Shown here one piece after another: positions 387 to 8,887 of a DNA stretch of 34,500 nt; position 1 is the first letter of the stretch, and each line of letters starts with the position of its first letter. This stretch comes from Gammaproteobacteria bacterium (GTDB lineage: Bacteria; Pseudomonadota; Gammaproteobacteria; SZUA-152): positions 1 to 34,500 of the forward strand of contig JAKIUF010000048.1 in the NCBI GenBank assembly GCA_021647705.1. Reading direction: 5' to 3'. The notes under the pieces were generated by a model. It saw only the letters and a program-made list of their open reading frames with translations. It was not told the origin of the DNA and did no database searches. The translations under genes were made by a program, and so were the position numbers.

Positions 387-2528
387 ATGTTTAAAGTCAT
401 ACTGCGTTGGATACTGAAAACCCTGTACCGCGTCGAAGTAAAAGGTGCTGAGCACCTGACTCAGTTCAGCGAACGCACATTGGTCGTCGCCAACCACACC
501 TCATTCCTGGATGCCGTGCTGCTGTACGCCTACCTCCCCATATCAGCTACCTTTGCAATCAACACCTACATCTCCCGTCGCTGGATTGGCCGCCTGGCTA
601 ATGTGATTGGCAACCTGTTTCCCATCGACCCTAGCAACCCGCTTTCCATCCGCGCCCTGATCCGTCGCCTGCAAAAAGGTGGCACGGTGGTCATTTTTCC
701 CGAAGGACGCATCACAGTAACTGGCTCTCTGATGAAAGTGTATCCCGGCCCCGGCCTGGTGGCTGATCGATCCCATGCCACGGTACTGCCAATCCGCATC
801 GATGGTGCCCAATACACACCCTTTTCTCGTCTTCGTGGTCGTGTACGTCTGAGCTGGTTTCCCAAAATCACCTTGAATGTGCAAGCGCCCCGTTGTTTGT
901 ATATTGCGGACGAATATCGTGGCCGTCGTCGCCGTGAACAGGCGGGCCGTTTGTTGTCAGAGTTGATGACTGAAATGATGTACAGCACAGCGAACACAAA
1001 TCAAACACTGGCGGAGCGTTTACTCGATGCACGTCGTATTCACGGTGGTTCACACATTATTGCCGAAGACATCAATCGTACACCGCTCAGCTATAACAGC
1101 CTGATCACTCGCTCGGTTGTGTTGGGTCGCCAGTTACTCAAATATTGTGATGGTGACGATACCCTGGGTGTTTTGTTACCGGGAACGCTGGCCACCGTGG
1201 CAACATTCTGGGGTTTACAGCTGCATAATAAAATCCCGGCCATGCTGAATTACACCGCAGGCGCACAGGGAATGATTGCTGCGTGCGAAACGGCTCGTCT
1301 GCGGCGCGTGATCACATCCCGTCGCTTCGTCCAACAGGCCAAAATTGAAAAAGCTGTGGAAGCTCTGGGTAAAAAAGTTGAGCTGATTTATCTTGAAGAT
1401 GTCGCAGAAACCATTGGACTGTTTGACAAATTGTTGGGCTTGGCAAAAAGCCGGATCGACAGCTGGTTGTTACGTGATACCAACCGTGACACATCACAAC
1501 GTGCGGTCATTTTGTTTACTTCGGGCTCTGAAGGCACACCAAAGGGGGTCGTACTGTCTCATCACAATTTGTTAGCTAATATTCAGCAACTGATGTCACG
1601 GATTGATTTTAATGCCCAGGATATCGCTCTTAATGCCTTGCCTTTATTCCACTCTTTTGGATTAACCGCAGGTATGATCCTGCCGCTGACATCGGGTGTG
1701 CGGGTTTTCTTCTATCCCTCACCATTACATTACCGCGTCGTGCCGGAGGTTGCGTATGAAATCAATGCCACGCTTCTTTTTGGCACCAACACCTTCCTGT
1801 CAGGCTATGCACGTTTTGCCAATGCCTATGATTTTTACAGTCTGCGTTATGTTTTCGCCGGAGCTGAAAAACTTCAGGATGAAGTCCGTCGCACTTGGCA
1901 GGACAAATTCGGCGTGCGCATTTTTGAAGGTTATGGCGCAACCGAAACCAGTCCTGTTATTGCCGGCAATGCACCATTGGCAAACCGCCCAGGCACAGTC
2001 GGTCAATTAATGCCCGGCATGGAATACCGCTTAATCAACGTACCGGGTCTGGAAGAAGGTCAGCGTTTGCACGTTAAAGGCCCGAATGTCATGCAGGGTT
2101 ATTTGTTTCATGATAACCCTGGTGTGCTGGTGCCGCCTTCATCGGAACTGGGAGATGGCTGGTATGACACGGGTGATATTGTCACTATTGATGCCGATGG
2201 TTTTGTGCGAATCTGCGGTCGCGCCAAACGTTTTGCAAAAATTGCCGGGGAAATGGTCTCGTTGACCTCTGTTGAAGTCTTGGCCAGCAAAGTGTGGCCC
2301 GATGCTCTGCATGCCGCCATTGCCATTCCAGACGCCAAAAAAGGTGAACAAGTGATATTACTGACAACAATTGATAGCGCTGACCGTGCGGCATTGCTGG
2401 CACAAGCGAGAAATGAAGGTTATGCGGAAATCAGCGTACCTCGAAAAGTCATGCATATCGATAAGATGCCGGTTTTAGGTACAGGTAAAATCGATTATGT
2501 TTCGGCCAACAAACTGGCAGCCGCTTGA
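387..2528 (+). CDS. aas: Bifunctional 2-acyl-GPE acyltransferase / acyl-ACP synthetase (Aas)
   Basis: Aas re-acylates lysophosphatidylethanolamine at the inner membrane: an acyl-ACP synthetase activates fatty acid with ATP and the acyltransferase transfers it. Both domains are visible. The N-terminal PlsC-like domain has the NHTSFLD motif (HX4D) and FPEGR. The C-terminal AMP-binding domain has the P-loop-like FTSGSEGTPKG, the GYGATETSP motif and a YDTGD motif. From ATG 387 the protein has 713 residues, close to the 719 of E. coli Aas. A longer reading from TTG 312 exists, but ATG 387 is preceded by AAAGGA at good spacing and starts directly at the conserved domain. lplT follows at once, as in E. 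coli, which supports the assignment and suggests one transcript. Confidence 0.93.
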   Translation: MFKVILRWILKTLYRVEVKGAEHLTQFSERTLVVANHTSFLDAVLLYAYLPISATFAINTYISRRWIGRLANVIGNLFPIDPSNPLSIRALIRRLQKGGTVVIFPEGRITVTGSLMKVYPGPGLVADRSHATVLPIRIDGAQYTPFSRLRGRVRLSWFPKITLNVQAPRCLYIADEYRGRRRREQAGRLLSELMTEMMYSTANTNQTLAERLLDARRIHGGSHIIAEDINRTPLSYNSLITRSVVLGRQLLKYCDGDDTLGVLLPGTLATVATFWGLQLHNKIPAMLNYTAGAQGMIAACETARLRRVITSRRFVQQAKIEKAVEALGKKVELIYLEDVAETIGLFDKLLGLAKSRIDSWLLRDTNRDTSQRAVILFTSGSEGTPKGVVLSHHNLLANIQQLMSRIDFNAQDIALNALPLFHSFGLTAGMILPLTSGVRVFFYPSPLHYRVVPEVAYEINATLLFGTNTFLSGYARFANAYDFYSLRYVFAGAEKLQDEVRRTWQDKFGVRIFEGYGATETSPVIAGNAPLANRPGTVGQLMPGMEYRLINVPGLEEGQRLHVKGPNVMQGYLFHDNPGVLVPPSSELGDGWYDTGDIVTIDADGFVRICGRAKRFAKIAGEMVSLTSVEVLASKVWPDALHAAIAIPDAKKGEQVILLTTIDSADRAALLAQARNEGYAEISVPRKVMHIDKMPVLGTGKIDYVSANKLAAA

Positions 2529-2530
2529 GC

Positions 2531-3775
2531 ATGAAAGACAAAATGCCCCATAAAATAAATAACAATATCTATCGTGTGCTGGCCACTCAATTTCTGACAG
2601 CCTTTGCTGATAATGCTATTTTATTCACAGCCATTACCATCATCATGCAACAGGTCGAGCCTGGGAATTGGTACATACCTGCCTTACAGGCGTCGTTTCT
2701 GGTTGCCTTTGTCTTGTTGGCCCCCTGGGTGGGCCGACTTGCCGACTCCCGCCCCAAGCCTCGCGTATTGTTCGGTGCGAACACGGTAAAAGCCTTTGGT
2801 GCGAGTTTGTTATTCCTGAATATCGAACCACTTATTGCTTATGCCATTATTGGTCTTGGGGCAGCGGCATACAGCCCGGCAAAATACGGCATTCTTCCGG
2901 AAATGGTTGATGAAAACACACTGGTCAAAGCAAACGGCTGGATAGAAGGATCAACCATACTTGCCATTCTCAGTGGCACTGTGGTCGGTGCGGCACTATC
3001 AGAATACTCCATTAGCATCGCGCTTTTCACTGTCATTACCTTGTACATTATTTCCGCACTGATTGCCTTAACCATTCGGCACAACGTCATTGTCGGGGTA
3101 AAAACAGAAAATGCACTCGGCAATTTCCACACACAAATGAAAGCTCTGCTGGCCACACCACGGGCCCGCTTTTCGACACTCGGAGTGAGTTTATTCTGGG
3201 CTGCCGCCACCGTGTTACGTGTGCTTTTAATCGCGTGGGCCCCGGCGATGCTATTCATTTATTCAACCACCGACATTGCCATGCTGACCATGGCTGTCGC
3301 TATTGGTATTGCCTTCGGTGCATTACTGGTGCCGCGTCTTATTCCCTTGGCTTATCTGCGTCGCGCACGACTGGCGGCCTATGCCATGGGTATCGTTATC
3401 ATCTTGCTGGCGACAGTGGACAATATCTGGGTGGCGCGCTTTGCGCTATTTTTGGCGGGCACTTGCGGTGGTTTATTTGTCGTACCCATTAATGCGGCAT
3501 TACAGGAAATAGGGCATAAATCCATAGGCAGCGGTGGTGCAGTAGCTATCCAGAATTTTTTTGAAAACCTGGCAATGTTAACCGCCACCGGAATCTACAT
3601 AATCGTCGCTGGTATCGGCGTGGATCCCGTTGTTACTATGATGTGGCTGGGGGCATTAGTGATTATTGCAACCACAATTGTTTCGTGGCGCTTACCTAAA
3701 GATACGGGAGAACTGTTTGATAACAGTCCTGATAAACAAATGACCTCACAGGAAATTAAATCTCCTGGAGATTAA
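2531..3775 (+). CDS. lplT: Lysophospholipid transporter LplT (MFS)
   Basis: LplT flips lysophospholipids from the outer to the inner leaflet of the inner membrane so that Aas can re-acylate them. The protein has 414 residues from ATG 2531 (E. coli LplT: 397) and many hydrophobic helices typical of the major facilitator superfamily. The N-terminal FLTAFADNAILF matches the family's FLSAFGDNA-type start, and a conserved SPAKYGILPE follows TM3-4. The stop of aas (2526-2528) lies 2 bases before this ATG; TTG 2525 would overlap the aas stop and is an alternative start. The tight linkage indicates translational coupling. Confidence 0.92.
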   Translation: MKDKMPHKINNNIYRVLATQFLTAFADNAILFTAITIIMQQVEPGNWYIPALQASFLVAFVLLAPWVGRLADSRPKPRVLFGANTVKAFGASLLFLNIEPLIAYAIIGLGAAAYSPAKYGILPEMVDENTLVKANGWIEGSTILAILSGTVVGAALSEYSISIALFTVITLYIISALIALTIRHNVIVGVKTENALGNFHTQMKALLATPRARFSTLGVSLFWAAATVLRVLLIAWAPAMLFIYSTTDIAMLTMAVAIGIAFGALLVPRLIPLAYLRRARLAAYAMGIVIILLATVDNIWVARFALFLAGTCGGLFVVPINAALQEIGHKSIGSGGAVAIQNFFENLAMLTATGIYIIVAGIGVDPVVTMMWLGALVIIATTIVSWRLPKDTGELFDNSPDKQMTSQEIKSPGD

Positions 3776-3840
3776 ATTCCAGGTGAGTGTGAATTAAGGG
3801 TCAAATTACTCTATAAGCGTTTTTTTACAGAAAACACCGT

Positions 3841-3866
3841 CATTCCGGCATGTTGTTAGCCGGAAT
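3841..3866. repeat. CATTCCGGC inverted repeat (REP-like)
   Basis: ATTCCGGC (3842-3849) pairs with GCCGGAAT (3859-3866) around a 9-base loop. A related hairpin with the same CATTCCGG stem lies at 23068-23091 between gap and tkt. Short stems of this kind are common dispersed REP-like elements in Proteobacteria. Confidence 0.6.
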
Positions 3867-3945
3867 CCAGAGGTTTACATCCTAGGACAATCGTTCCAGT
3901 ACATTGGGAGCTTATATTGTAGTGGTACTGACAAATGGCGTGTTA

Positions 3946-4024
3946 TAAACGCAGAGGTCGCAAAGGCGCAGAGAAAAACACTAAAAACTCTGTGCCTCCT
4001 GCGTCTCTGCGATTTCTGAATTAA
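3946..4024. repeat. Dispersed GCAGAG...CTCTGC palindromic repeat, full copy
   Basis: The left arm 3951-3973 (GCAGAGGTCGCAAAGGCGCAG then AG) is the imperfect reverse complement of the right arm 3989-4011 (CTCTGTGCCTCCTGCGTCTC then TGC), with an AT-rich loop between. The same sequence family recurs at 142-179, 21922-21993 and 29745-29775, always between genes. Confidence 0.75.
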
Positions 4025-4079
4025 TATCCAGCAATTTTTAAAAGCGGGTTTTTTAGCGCTTACTTCTTATTTTATGCAA

Positions 4080-4114
4080 CAAATAAGGCAACTAGCCAAA
4101 CCCGGTTAATTGCC
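4080..4114 (-). terminator. Probable Rho-independent terminator of the ABM-like gene
   Basis: Read on the minus strand, GGCAATTA (4114-4107) pairs with TAGTTGCC (4094-4087), with one G-U pair and a 12-base loop, and is followed by TTATTT. It lies 26 bases after the stop of the minus-strand gene ending at 4140. Confidence 0.5.
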
Positions 4115-4139
4115 TGTTGTACAGTCGTATCTTATATTC

Positions 4140-4472
4140 TCAGCTGTGTTTTGCCTCATACACGGCAAGTGATTTAAAATGCCTCACACCTGCCTCAGGG
4201 TTTGTCTCATCCATTTCCATCAGTGAGAAAAACGCCATACAGGCATCTGAACTCATTTCCTGAGTCAACACAGCTTTAGCGTCCTCCATACTTTGCCAAT
4301 GTATAATATCTGCGTATTCGTTATCTTTTACATGTACCAATTCACGACTGATGAAACCCTTTAAATTATTAACAAAATCCTGTTGGAATTTCTCTGATGC
4401 CCGTAACAAGTCCTGCTCTGTTTTTCCCGGCAAAAGTTTTATCGTTGCCATTTCAATGATTTTCCCACCCAT
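4140..4472 (-). CDS. ABM-like (dimeric alpha-beta barrel) small protein
   Basis: The protein has 110 residues. The pattern resembles the antibiotic-biosynthesis-monooxygenase/stress-response dimeric ferredoxin-like fold: an N-terminal strand (IIEMATIKLLPGK), a helix ending in QQDFVNNLKGFISREL, a strand with YADIIHWQSMEDAKA, and a final helix and strand (FKSLAVYE). In this superfamily members are small oxygenases, heme-degrading enzymes or proteins of unknown function, so the substrate cannot be named. The frame is open back to 4601, but ATG 4472 is chosen because AAAGGGAG lies just upstream on the minus strand and the fold starts there. It stands alone, with its own terminator. Confidence 0.65.
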   Translation of the reverse strand: MGGKIIEMATIKLLPGKTEQDLLRASEKFQQDFVNNLKGFISRELVHVKDNEYADIIHWQSMEDAKAVLTQEMSSDACMAFFSLMEMDETNPEAGVRHFKSLAVYEAKHS

Positions 4473-5041
4473 TATCAAATCTCCCTTTAGCTGTTCCAGT
4501 AAAAAAATGTTAATAAACGGGTTATTTTCACTTGTTAGGCTTAACCAACCCGAATAATTCATGAATAAATGACAACTATAAACACCTGCTACTGACAGCA
4601 TTCTGTCAGCAGTGATGATTATTTTTCATAACGCATGGATAAATACCTCCTCATCCCTATCAATCGTTCCTTTATCACTGCGTTATCAACAGTAAACACA
4701 ACGCTACAACCCAAGGAGACATATTATGTAATGCACCAAAACCTGCCACATCGGCCTGCGTGCTGCCTTGCTAACCCTCCTACTGCTGACTAATGCTGGT
4801 TATAAACCGGCGTGGCAAACACCTGCAACGTCATTCTAGGCTCAATACTGGTCCTTCATTCTTAATCCATCTGCCTTCGGACTCCAACTCTCATTACTAC
4901 TTTTTATTTTTCCAGTTAGTGATGTTACATTACATCTTTATGGGCTATGGATAAGCTGGAAAACCATAGGCCCCTTTATCTTTCAATGCAAATGACGTTA
5001 ACTCAATAATCAACCAGCATTAAATTACAAGTATTCACCTT
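4473..5041. other. Intergenic region with a broken small gene and a hairpin
   Basis: The region upstream of the ABM-like gene holds its promoter, a tiny gene with a stop at codon 2 (4726-4839) and a hairpin at 4942-4973 (GGGCTATGG against CCATAGGCCC with one bulged G). No other gene is supported. The longer reading frames here lack ribosome sites and family features. Confidence 0.5.
4726..4839 (+). pseudogene. Possible small signal-peptide gene with stop at codon 2
   Basis: A strong Shine-Dalgarno sequence (AAGGAGA, 4713-4719) precedes ATG 4726, but the next codon is TAA. Beyond it the frame stays open for 35 codons to TAG 4837-4839 and reads like an export signal: basic residues, then GLRAALLTLLLLTNAG. 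An overlapping ATG at 4731 reads another frame for only 17 codons. The simplest view is a small secreted-protein gene inactivated by a nonsense or indel mutation and truncated. A sequencing error in the start region is possible. No family is recognised. Confidence 0.35.
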
Positions 5042-5302
5042 ATGAAACATAACGAATTTTCTATTGGACAGGACTTTCGGTGCGGAGAACGTCTGTGGCG
5101 CTGCACTGACATAGGTACACGAGTAATCGTAGCCATTCCAGCTGATTATGCGGAAATAACAACAGCATCGGGTGAGCCTCCTAATCTGCAACTTAGTAGC
5201 CAAACCCAGCATTTAACCGAAAGTGATTTTAATGGCCCACCCTATGCGTTAGCCGAAATCGTATTTGATGAGGATGATATTGTTGCTTGTGGGCGTATTT
5301 AA
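5042..5302 (+). CDS. Small conserved hypothetical protein
   Basis: The protein has 86 residues, starting at ATG 5042 in MKHNEFSIG. It has the pattern F-x2-G-x2-FRCGERLWRCTDIGTRVIVAI, then FNGPPYALAEIVFDEDD near the C-terminus. As recalled from proteobacterial genomes, small stand-alone proteins with this WRCTDIGTR and NGPPY...FDEDD layout recur, but their function is not known. There is no signal peptide or membrane segment, so a cytoplasmic location is likely. The two nearby Cys residues (FRCG, WRC) could bind metal, but this is only a guess. No operon partner overlaps it. Confidence 0.7.
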   Translation: MKHNEFSIGQDFRCGERLWRCTDIGTRVIVAIPADYAEITTASGEPPNLQLSSQTQHLTESDFNGPPYALAEIVFDEDDIVACGRI

Positions 5303-5421
5303 CTTTTATAAATATAAACTGTGATTATATTTACCACCCTTTTTGAGTAGCACCCCCCAAAAACGAGAAAATCACAAAATAGCATTCAAAATATTATAGG
5401 TTTTTATCAGCAAACTTCTCC

Positions 5422-5437
5422 GCTCTTAAGCAAGAGC
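5422..5437. other. Short perfect inverted repeat upstream of the sirtuin gene
   Basis: GCTCTT (5422-5427) and AAGAGC (5432-5437) flank AAGC. It lies about 85 bases before the sirtuin ATG, in a gene-free stretch (5303-5521), and might be an operator or chance palindrome. Confidence 0.3.
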
Positions 5438-5521
5438 TTCTTAGCCTGTATGCACCCAATTTAAATTACCTATTTGAAAAGTATATTGCTCATTCACAAA
5501 CATTTTATTTATACTGGAAAC

Positions 5522-6244
5522 ATGACAAAACCAAACATCGATAACAAAAAGATTTTAGTATTCACTGGAGCCGGTATCAGTGCCGAAAGCGGCTTACAAA
5601 CCTTTCGTGACGGCGGGGGATTGTGGGAAGGGTGTGATGTGATGGAGGTTGCCTCCCCAGGCGGGTGGGCAAAAGACCCTGGCCACGTCCTCTCCTTTTA
5701 TAATTCACGCCGAATGGAAGCGGCACAAGCTCAGCCCAATGCTGCTCACCTGGCCGTTGCAACACTTGAGAAAAAATATGAGGTCATGGTTGTTACGCAA
5801 AATGTTGACGATTTGCATGAGCGCGCAGGTTCCACTCGGGTTATTCACGTTCATGGTCAATTGAACTTTGCACGCAGCTGTGTGGATGAAACACTCATCT
5901 ACCCGATTGGTGATAAACCTATCCACTTGGGTGATGTTTGCGAAAAAGGCAGTCAACTTCGGCCTCATATCGTTTGGTTCGGCGAAAAAATTCATCACTA
6001 TGATGTGGCCAGGGACTTTATCTGCCAAGCAAGCCGGGTATTAGCCGTGGGCACATCCCTTAGTGTCTACCCGATTGCAGGTCTTTTAAAAAAGGCGCGG
6101 GGGCGAGCAGAAAAAATAGTGCTGGCTCCCGATATAGAGAAAAAGCCATACGGTTTCAACTGGTTCAGGGGTAAAGCAACTCACCTAGTTCCTATAATAA
6201 CCGAACGCTGGTTGTCTGGGCTGCGCGTCGATCAATTAAAATAA
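5522..6244 (+). CDS. cobB: NAD-dependent protein deacylase, Sir2/CobB class III
   Basis: Sirtuins remove acyl groups from lysine using NAD+. The Rossmann motif GAGISAESGLQTFRD lies near the N-terminus, followed by QNVDDLHERAG and the catalytic His in VHGQL. FYNSRR supplies the Tyr-x-x-Arg pair that marks class III desuccinylases such as E. coli CobB. The protein has 240 residues from ATG 5522, preceded by CTGGAAA. A TTG 16 codons upstream is a weaker start. The small zinc module is unusual: only two Cys (ARSC and GDVC) remain where E. coli CobB has four, although RPHIVWFGE after it is conserved. Some bacterial sirtuins lack the zinc site, so activity is still plausible. The substrate is unknown. 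Confidence 0.88.
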   Translation: MTKPNIDNKKILVFTGAGISAESGLQTFRDGGGLWEGCDVMEVASPGGWAKDPGHVLSFYNSRRMEAAQAQPNAAHLAVATLEKKYEVMVVTQNVDDLHERAGSTRVIHVHGQLNFARSCVDETLIYPIGDKPIHLGDVCEKGSQLRPHIVWFGEKIHHYDVARDFICQASRVLAVGTSLSVYPIAGLLKKARGRAEKIVLAPDIEKKPYGFNWFRGKATHLVPIITERWLSGLRVDQLK

Positions 6245-6386
6245 AGGAGCGCAAACTAATGCTGTTCAACCAGCAACGAAATAGATTTAAAATATTCTTT
6301 GAGCACTATTGATCACCTTATCTCTACAATCAATATCACGCAGAAAAGTGACACAGCACAGGAATATCACCGAATACAAATACACA

Positions 6387-6430
6387 CTGTCACCAAACCG
6401 TCACACATTCTTCATCAAACATTCATTTAT
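6387..6430 (+). promoter_or_regulatory. Pho-box-like array of four 11-bp units upstream of the porin
   Basis: Four consecutive 11-base units can be read: CTGTCACCAAA (6387-6397), CCGTCACACAT (6398-6408), TCTTCATCAAA (6409-6419) and CATTCATTTAT (6420-6430). PhoB sites are known to be tandem 11-base repeats with consensus CTGTCAT plus four AT-rich bases. The first two units match well and the last two are degenerate. TATTAT at 6428-6433 could be a -10 element about 12 bases after the second-third unit pair. The site is 76 bases before the porin ATG. Confidence 0.65.
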
Positions 6431-6505
6431 TATCGCCACACTCCCACCTTTCTATTTATCACCTGCGGATTCACAGGTAATTATTCTTAATTTGGGAGTC
6501 ATGAA

Positions 6506-7567
6506 ATGAAAAAAAATCTGTTTGTTTTGTCGGTAGCCGTCGCACTGACGACACCGGTTGCCGCAATGGCTGTCGAAGTCTCTGGTGAAAAACTGGAAAT
6601 TTACGGCAAGCTTCACATGTCCATCGACAACAGCAACCAGGATGACCCGGCGACCAATAACGATGGCATGAGCATTTCCAGCAATTCTTCCCGCCTGGGA
6701 TTCAAAGGAAAAATTCCTCTGGAGAATGGCATGAAGTTAATCTGGCAGGCCGAGCAGGAGGTACGTTGGGACGACAGCTCCAAAGGTAACTTTTCTGATC
6801 GTAACAGTTATCTGGGACTGGCCAGCGGTGTACATAGTCTCCGTGTTGGCATTTACGACACACCATTCAAGACTGTGGCTTCCAAGTGGGGTTTGTTTGG
6901 TGACTCCGTGGGTGAGCGTCGCTCCATACTCGGTGCCGGTTATGACAACGGCAACCAGTTGAACGAACGTGTGAAAAACATGGTGATGTACCAATTCAAA
7001 AACAAGGCATTAAAAATCCGGGCCATATATGCCGTGGAGCCGGAAGATTCATCCAATGGTGTTGATAACAATGATGAAACCATGAGCGGTGCGGGCCTGT
7101 GGTGGAAAAACAGTCACCTGAAACTTTCTGCCAGCTACGAAAACTGGAAACAGCACAGCAAAATGGCGGACGGTTCCGCTTGGCGAGCAGCCGCTGTCTA
7201 CCAGCTAAGCACCCATCAGCTTGGTGTCATTTATGAGGATATTGACTCCGATACAGTTAACGAATGGAAACGCTCCGCTTATGGTATTAACTGGAAATGG
7301 GCATTCTCTGGTCGCACGAATATTCGTGCTCAGTACATTACGGTAGAAGATGCTGAAAATACCGAAGACACCAGTGCAAGCAAAATCGCTGTGGGCGTTT
7401 TCCACACGTTGGATAAAAAAGCTCAGGTCTATCTGGCCTATGCTGCTACCGACAATGATGCCAATGCCAAATTTCAGGCTGTCGATGGCGGCCATGGAGA
7501 CGAAGTCAAAACAGTTGCAGGTGGCAACCCCAATTCCATTTCCGCTGGATTGATTTACAAGTTCTAG
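6506..7567 (+). CDS. Gram-negative porin, possibly phosphate-regulated
   Basis: A 353-residue outer-membrane porin of the Gram-negative trimeric type. It starts with a signal peptide (MKKNLFVLSVAVALTT...AMA), then VEVSGEKLEIYGKLHMSID, the usual first strand of such porins. The last residues are LIYKF, ending in the Phe recognised by the BAM assembly machinery. A GGGAG ribosome site precedes ATG 6506. Internal strands alternate polar and aromatic residues. An upstream Pho-box-like array suggests induction by phosphate starvation, so a PhoE-like role is plausible but inferred. No specific ion selectivity can be read from the sequence. Confidence 0.88.
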   Translation: MKKNLFVLSVAVALTTPVAAMAVEVSGEKLEIYGKLHMSIDNSNQDDPATNNDGMSISSNSSRLGFKGKIPLENGMKLIWQAEQEVRWDDSSKGNFSDRNSYLGLASGVHSLRVGIYDTPFKTVASKWGLFGDSVGERRSILGAGYDNGNQLNERVKNMVMYQFKNKALKIRAIYAVEPEDSSNGVDNNDETMSGAGLWWKNSHLKLSASYENWKQHSKMADGSAWRAAAVYQLSTHQLGVIYEDIDSDTVNEWKRSAYGINWKWAFSGRTNIRAQYITVEDAENTEDTSASKIAVGVFHTLDKKAQVYLAYAATDNDANAKFQAVDGGHGDEVKTVAGGNPNSISAGLIYKF

Positions 7568-7574
7568 ACTAAAG

Positions 7575-7605
7575 GGAAGAAAAATGCGCAGGGACGCGCG
7601 CCTTT
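7575..7605 (+). terminator. Possible terminator after the porin gene
   Basis: Just after the porin stop, GCGC and GCGC flank AGGGAC in a GC-rich block followed by CCTTTAATT. The stem is short, so this is weak. The rest of the gap to 7723 shows nothing else. Confidence 0.3.
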
Positions 7606-7723
7606 AATTCAAGCACTTATTTTTACCTGAACCCAGGGCTACTCAATCAGACTATCGATCCAACCTGTGCCGGAATGGCGGTAGTTTCAAGTGGACGCCA
7701 AACCATCCCCCATAGCACCATCC

Positions 7724-8887
7724 CTAAAATTTCCGCGTATAACGCGCGTAGAGATCCTTGTCTTCACGTTTTTCGGTTTTGTCAGTACGTTGTTCAATAT
7801 CAGTACGATAACGCACGCGAATTTCGAGGCGCTGTTTTTTGGCAATATTCCAACGGTAACGTGTTTCGTACAGATGCTGATTATTTTTAAAGTCGGGTGA
7901 AAGCAACCAACCACCCTCCACTCTACCCACCACGACACCCACACTGTGACGCGGCACAATATCGATAAAGTTGAAGGTCACCTGCGTAGCATTGCCACCG
8001 GCATCGCCACTGTTGCCTAAATTAAGCGCGGTGTTGGTGGGCGTGTTGGGAGCATAGCCCAGCTCACCGGCCAGCAAAAACTTCATGCCACCTGCCCCCG
8101 TGGGCCACTGTGCGGCAAAACGTCCCACAAACGCCAGATAATCATCAATATTGCCTGTAGCACTACCATCAGTTTGCAAGGCGGATGGCAGGTAAGTGAT
8201 ATTCAGGGAGCGCTGCACAATAGTGGCTTTTTTATCGGTTTTTTCGTACGCAAGAAAATAACTGACCCGACTGTCGCTATCGGCAAAATCCAGCGTTTTG
8301 CGACGCACTTGTGTGGCCCCTTCTTCAGGGTTGTATTGCACAATGGCATGGGTATTCCAGCCGTTGCTGCCTTTATGTTTAAAATAAAGCCCGTCCGTCC
8401 AAGCGATATCAGTGTTAGGACTGTCATTGCGATCCAGGGATTTTTTCGCCACGCCCACTAACTCCAGTTTGGTCTGCATGCGCCCTGCGCGCAGACTCCA
8501 AGCTCCCCGGGTATAATTCAACCACATTTCATCGAAAGTGGCCTGCCCCATTTTCAGGCCATCAGACCCCGGAGTGATGCCGGATGAATAAAGCTCAAAT
8601 TCTGGGTCGGCGGCACTACGATGCGTAGAATAACGCCCGGCGAAGCGCACCCGGGCACTGAGCGATTCGCTGATCGTCGCATGTAAACCCGCACGCAAAC
8701 GCAGTCGCCACTCATCTTTTTCCGACGTGCTGCCATCGCGGTCATCACGATCCAGCATATAAAGCCCGGCACGCACATCCCCCACCAGACTGAAAGTATC
8801 GTTAATTGGCACAGCGGCCTGTAATGTGCTTTGAGTCAACAGCGCACTCACTGCCAACGTGCTACTCACTATCAATTTTTGAGTCAT
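7724..8887 (-). CDS. Outer-membrane beta-barrel protein, alginate-export-like
   Basis: A 387-residue protein with an N-terminal signal peptide (MTQKLIVSSTLAVSALLTQ...LQA). The mature part shows barrel strands with alternating residues, including RLRLRAGLHATISESLSARV, then ATFDEMWLNYTRGAWSLRAGRM, and a terminal ARYTRKF ending in Phe. The layout (an arginine-rich first strand, then a strand holding LRAGR) resembles the alginate-export/porin-type family, but the substrate cannot be assigned and alginate is not implied. It is transcribed convergently with the porin and ends 156 bases from it. The ribosome site is weak (AAAAGAAA). Confidence 0.7.
   Translation of the reverse strand: MTQKLIVSSTLAVSALLTQSTLQAAVPINDTFSLVGDVRAGLYMLDRDDRDGSTSEKDEWRLRLRAGLHATISESLSARVRFAGRYSTHRSAADPEFELYSSGITPGSDGLKMGQATFDEMWLNYTRGAWSLRAGRMQTKLELVGVAKKSLDRNDSPNTDIAWTDGLYFKHKGSNGWNTHAIVQYNPEEGATQVRRKTLDFADSDSRVSYFLAYEKTDKKATIVQRSLNITYLPSALQTDGSATGNIDDYLAFVGRFAAQWPTGAGGMKFLLAGELGYAPNTPTNTALNLGNSGDAGGNATQVTFNFIDIVPRHSVGVVVGRVEGGWLLSPDFKNNQHLYETRYRWNIAKKQRLEIRVRYRTDIEQRTDKTEKREDKDLYARYTRKF

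Follow-up and report, generated by a model that had tools for sequence, protein, structure and literature searches.

A four-unit Pho-box array precedes a porin gene in the window (the whole 34,500-nucleotide stretch of gammaproteobacterial DNA analysed here). Its best explanation is that it forms the operator of a PhoB-activated promoter predicted to drive the porin, a reading to which we assign a probability of roughly 0.9. As judged from sequence, a promoter of this type is very likely. Control by PhoB is well supported because the genome encodes PhoB and PhoR and carries sites at the pst genes and a weak one at phoB, because the array is conserved in orthologues, and because its spacing to the -10 is like that in E. 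coli. What the genomes show by computation is the site with its fixed geometry, how it is conserved, its sister sites, and genes for PhoB, PhoR and Pst proteins. The features of the promoter and gene are:

6387..6430, + strand: four-unit Pho-box array, 11-base direct repeats with a TCA core (matrix score, simulation and conservation)
6387-6397, + strand: Pho unit 1, CTGTCACCAAA (read directly)
6398-6408, + strand: Pho unit 2, CCGTCACACAT (read directly)
6409-6419, + strand: Pho unit 3, TCTTCATCAAA (read directly)
6420-6430, + strand: Pho unit 4, CATTCATTTAT (read directly, contiguous with units 1-3)
6387..6408, + strand: units 1-2, forming the upstream Pho box (fits the E. coli consensus best, one mismatch to the pattern used)
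6409..6426, + strand: downstream Pho box, the conserved 18 bases of units 3-4, at the -35 place (from its spacing to the -10)
6437..6442, + strand: predicted -10, CACACT, 10 bases past the downstream 18-base box (A in second and T in sixth position)
6494..6498, + strand: likely ribosome-binding site GGGAG (by eye; kept in L042-L046)
6506..7567, + strand: 353-aa porin of the Porin_4 family (by eye, the start resembles a signal peptide and the last residue is F)

The array is predicted to bind PhoB, presumably as two dimers. When phosphate is scarce, PhoR would phosphorylate PhoB, whose dimers would bind head-to-tail on the four 11-base units with the downstream dimer at the -35 place. Bound PhoB would then recruit RNA polymerase to the weak -10 hexamer CACACT (6437-6442), with transcription probably starting near 6449-6450. 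The porin (6506-7567) would be made and would let phosphate or small phosphorylated solutes cross the outer membrane. Such a promoter is ordinary in kind; the wider result is that a conserved Pho promoter accompanies a porin clade of broad distribution.

The array and its promoter geometry

Four units at exact 11-base spacing had been described in the first-pass annotation, which proposed a scan with a PhoB weight matrix. The units are present and contiguous over 6387-6430, and in such a scan the array is by far the top place in the window. Our 11-base unit matrix comprises 15 units from six E. coli MG1655 promoters (phoA, phoB, pstS, phoE, ugpB, and phoH), which were located with the Pho-box consensus; phnC was viewed but kept out of the matrix. 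The four-unit score at 6387 is 28.5, compared with 5.2 at the next separate place in the window, and none of 19.14 million first-order Markov positions reaches 28.5. The best four-unit score at spacings of 8-10 and 12-15 bases on the + strand of the window is 9.0 (versus 28.5 at 11 bases), and the maximum on the - strand of the window at any spacing is 17.5 (at a spacing of 9). In the 4,439,413-base genome the porin array is the sole match to TCA-N8-TCA-N8-TCA-N8-TCA, and the reversed control pattern has no match. According to PMC2648988, a Pho box consists of two or more 11-base direct repeats, each of CTGTCAT and four less conserved bases, and the porin array has this organization.

The two-unit score of the porin array is 18.1, and about six positions per genome are expected to score that high by chance. 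The pattern CTGTCAYNNANCTGTCAY, with up to two mismatches, has 31 matches in the genome versus 26 for its reversed control, so two units alone are insufficient to define a regulon. Further matches to the loose pattern include C6:45327 (20.3) and C29:46248 (four-unit score 16.7), and one candidate, C67:29437 (two-unit score 20.6, four-unit score 16.5 by the E. coli matrix), sits within a 556-aa reading frame and was set aside as chance. A two-unit match by itself is unconvincing, and the case is made by the four units together with their conservation. The six or so two-unit positions expected per genome could suggest that the array is a functionless chance run of TCA-rich words, but this is at odds with the four-unit simulation (0 of 19.1 million positions), with the uniqueness of the exact fourfold TCA in the genome, and with its recurrence at 17 of 20 related porins, as far down as 42% identity. 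Because the array is conserved across porins, we consider a chance origin hardly credible.

The porin promoter has a box at the -35 place and a predicted -10 about 10 bases downstream. This arrangement is like that of E. coli phoA, phoB and pstS, in which 11-base Pho boxes stand in tandem and a hexamer resembling a -10 follows the 18-base box after 10 bases. In the best-fitting register, the E. coli hexamers are TATAGT (phoA), CATAAT (phoB), TATTTT (pstS), and GAAACT (phoH). Those of phoE (TAAAAA at the -10 distance, with boxes weaker than the window array) and ugpB (TACAAA) fit less well, and A at position 2 with T at position 6 is found in four of the six promoters. Across 18 arrays, which are kin and hence not independent trials, the hexamer six bases past the fourth unit has this A and T in 16 cases, compared with at most 3 of 18 at 29 other offsets. 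The two exceptions are L070 and L099, and the commonest form of the hexamer is CANNNT. The unit core over the same arrays reads T (68 of 72), then C or A (72 of 72), then A (69 of 72). Array positions were fixed by the E. coli matrix, which excludes the hexamer. L068 (the same locus as L044) and L099 apparently have five Pho units, not four, and for this reason their register was moved one unit by hand; when unmoved, L068 fails the hexamer test (15 of 18). The set omits L066, a near copy of the window, and the array-less L076, L049, L096 and L098.

TATTAT at 6428-6433 was considered as a -10 and rejected: it shares bases with unit 4, and L044 and L045 lack it. No consensus promoter came out of a sigma-70 scan over 6240-7750 (2.2 expected), as is expected if Pho boxes replace the -35 element. 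The fixed distance from the array to the -10 would serve as a transferable mark of direct PhoB activation in bacteria remote from E. coli.

PhoB and sister sites in the genome

The first-pass annotation named the lack of a PhoB homologue, or of matches at other Pho-regulon genes, as refuting its reading, and suggested a look at the pst genes; the genome has both the homologue and such sites. PhoB (C38:10355-11023) scores 325.6 bits against a curated cut-off of 296.2 and shares 58% identity with E. coli PhoB. Its segment DRTVDVHIRRLRKALEP, which we take to be the recognition helix (the DNA-reading segment), is identical to that of E. coli and differs in all six other paralogues aligned there; a seventh, L011, aligns in the receiver domain only and is outside this count. 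Downstream of phoB are PhoR (456.9 bits, cut-off 334.2) and a PstS-family protein (TIGR02136, 281.6 over 206.6; 42.9 of 205 with the other PstS model). C76 carries a PstC-like protein, PstA, PstB, and PhoU. The PstC-like protein scores 190.7, slightly under the cut-off of 196.45, and has a long extra N-terminal part with a weak WD-repeat match below cut-off. It measures 772 aa (L055:5683-8001, - strand) and PstA 594 aa (4023-5807, - strand), while the family models span about 300 positions.

Pho boxes are found before pstC (ATGTCACAAAACTGTCAT, two-unit score 21.9 by the E. coli matrix) and pstS (four units, 18.9 by the same matrix), and weakly before phoB (two-unit score 12.0). Ten bases past the last 18-base box, the hexamers are TATCAT at pstC, GATACT at pstS, TTTAAT at phoB (which has no A at position 2), and CACACT at the porin. 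A combined pattern of two loose units and the -10 has 13 matches in the genome, with the porin, pstS and pstC among them, versus 9 for the reversed control, and is thus not enriched genome-wide. At 12-base spacing the same combined pattern gives 20 matches (12 for the control), none of them at the porin or pst genes.

Another regulator of the OmpR/PhoB family (ArcA-like, TorR-like or CpxR-like) could bind the array. Several members of this family use short direct repeats, at least six other regulators in the genome match nearly the whole PhoB model, and the array drifts to TAA cores in the orthologues L097 and L075. As described in PMC3798270, ArcA boxes too are built of 11-base repeats, commonly three to five in number, with a composition highly similar to that of Pho boxes. 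Their position relative to the promoter is not conserved, whereas the distance from array to -10 is fixed here. The genome search with the ArcA model found no protein that reaches the cut-off, the top match (142.7 of 334 bits) being PhoB itself, which speaks against a promoter of the ArcA-box class. The same motif and spacing at pstC and pstS also count against a regulator other than PhoB. We consider such a regulator improbable, and PhoB is the preferred candidate.

Several Pho-like sites were observed elsewhere in the genome. On C4, a two-unit site with the right -10 spacing lies 25 bases before a phosphoenolpyruvate phosphomutase-family gene (L120:1501-2394); the gene is possibly phosphonate-related, and its site may be due to chance. 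On C45, a two-unit site, also with the -10 spacing, lies 46 bases before a thioredoxin-like gene (L128:1501-2064). Divergent from phoB lie genes for a DUF47 protein resembling PhoU and for a phosphate transporter of the PHO4 type (L053:11199-13195), and a two-unit Pho-like match (13.8) lies beside them at L053 11199. No array was found near the other Porin_4 matches, C19 and C23 (the latter below cut-off and with an approximate start): the best four-unit scores upstream are -18.6 and -6.0, respectively, and the score is at most 2.0 in the 14-18 kb around these matches.

Conservation of the array among related porins

Related porins were collected from named genome contigs (one scan, 8 loci), from 114 relatives (match at E 1e-20 in 24 genomes, own included), and from 369 genomes of the class, of which 15, the window's own among them, gave a match at E 1e-60 and partly overlap the set of relatives. 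After removal of copies (L042, L043, L044, and L045 duplicate L066, L067, L068, and L095, respectively), there were 38 porin loci. Arrays were called by their p values against 10,000 Markov simulations of the upstream region of each locus. At identities of at least 41% (n = 20, window included), 17 porins have the array at p <= 0.01 and 15 at p <= 0.001. Below 41% identity it is detected in 2 of 18 at both thresholds, and in 5 of 18 at p <= 0.05. The array is absent in L096, L049 and L098 (72%, 51% and 42% identity, respectively), also on looking further upstream. By the E. coli matrix some five of the 17 arrays score low (4.3 to 11.6), and among the reversed or complemented controls one reversed control, that of L048, reached 12.8, which exceeds the scores of these weaker arrays.

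The porin tree comprises 38 sequences, namely 37 loci and the C19 paralogue; L093, which has a broken frame, was counted in the upstream array test and left out of the tree. The distribution of the array on this tree requires 6 changes versus 12.9 in shuffles (0 of 500 as low), and 18 of the 19 array rows fall within one supported group of 23 (95/96). The array rows of this group span 10 family labels, and L078, outside the group, adds an eleventh (L046, L047 and L048 carry no family label). Identity among the array rows is as low as 32% (L089, L078). All porin relatives in the plasmid collection (24 records) are under 60% identity.

The array coincides with an edge of similarity. Beside the porin, DNA similarity to L044 and L045 sets in at 6387, exactly where the array starts, and similarity to L042 at 6380; immediately upstream of the array the sequences of all three diverge from the window. 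In L044 similarity resumes further upstream, to window 972-4799, which indicates the same locus differing in the stretch with the SIR2-family gene (about 4800-6386); this stretch (window about 4800-6390) is absent there. L043 retains the end of the SIR2-family gene, L042 stops 199 bases above the array, and L045 has no similarity upstream of it. The edge at the array, together with the differing upstream DNA, suggests that array and porin stay joined while the adjoining DNA is exchanged. A close orthologue (at least 87% identity) is present in 4 of 12 genomes examined of the window's genus and in none of 12 genomes from the family's other genera, two of which have distant matches only (28% and 32%); several of the genomes compared are incomplete. 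This patchy distribution could be explained by transfer or repeated loss. Convergent to the porin, a 387-aa protein is encoded (7724-8887, - strand) that has a signal-peptide-like start and a C-terminal F by eye and no Pfam or NCBIfam match. The Rfam search of the window found a tRNA alone.

The porin and its possible solutes

Among Pfam families, the porin matches Porin_4 (129.3 bits), weakly Porin_1 (32.3 bits), and no other. Its structure model, built with nine sequences, is of medium quality (pLDDT 68.7, pTM 0.71) and has an Omp32/PorB-like fold. The best solved folds among the matches listed are BpsOmp38, Omp32, chitoporin, OmpT and PorB, and the top query TM-score within the best 50 matches listed is 0.74 (Omp32). 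Omp32 (Comamonas/Delftia acidovorans), PorB (Neisseria) and BpsOmp38 are the nearest solved sequences as well as folds, although their identity to the window porin is about 20%. Three arginines (R63, R99, and R155) are invariant in nine sequences and align with Omp32 arginines 38, 75 and 133 (chain positions, hand-counted), which presumably line the pore.

The first-pass annotation had predicted a phosphate-starvation porin like PhoE or OprP. The regulatory part of this prediction is well supported by PhoB, the sister sites, the conservation and the spacing, and the likeness appears to be one of regulation only. E. coli PhoE, which has an extra pore lysine, shares with the window porin a general porin fold and a Pho-type promoter; by family score the window porin is Porin_4 and weakly Porin_1. 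Pseudomonas OprP and OprO are controlled by phosphate starvation, and OprP has an arginine ladder. Their family, PF07396, has no match in the genome, the window porin included. OprP is described in PMC3706956 as a porin of phosphate acquisition.

We lean slightly towards the view that this distinct Porin_4 clade, whose arrays occur in at least 10 labelled families of the class, provides its mostly uncultured bearers with their phosphate-starvation porin, which would fill the place of PhoE in enterics or OprP in pseudomonads and keep a multi-unit Pho promoter despite upstream exchange. No description of a Pho-controlled Porin_4 clade was found in the literature searched (titles and the starts of abstracts, with most subscription journals outside its scope). 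The array provides a sequence handle on how uncultured Gammaproteobacteria may pass scarce phosphate through the outer membrane, and 'porin' genes in uncultured genomes can in this way be assigned a regulatory role.

The porin could also be under Pho control and serve another solute (e.g. organic acids or sugars) or general permeability, and not phosphate. This possibility concerns the pore and not the promoter, and its odds do not compete with those of the PhoB-activated promoter. It is in line with the net acidic mature porin, with a fold that resembles Omp32, PorB, OmpT and OmpF equally, and with the lack of a match to an OprP-type family in the genome. The net charge is -6 past residue 22 and ranges from -11 to +6 in eleven rows at no less than 43% identity, and neither it nor the arginine alignment nor the fold discriminates anion or phosphate selectivity of the porin. 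Conversely, the entry for Omp32, one of the nearest folds, calls it an anion-selective porin in its title, and PhoE, itself a Pho-controlled porin, is termed anion-selective in PMC3511308. We regard another solute as possible but less likely than not, with phosphate or small phosphorylated solutes as the proposed cargo. PMC3511308 also terms Vibrio cholerae VCA1008 a PhoE homologue and links it to phosphate starvation; like the window porin, for which such a link is predicted, VCA1008 is a porin outside the enterics.
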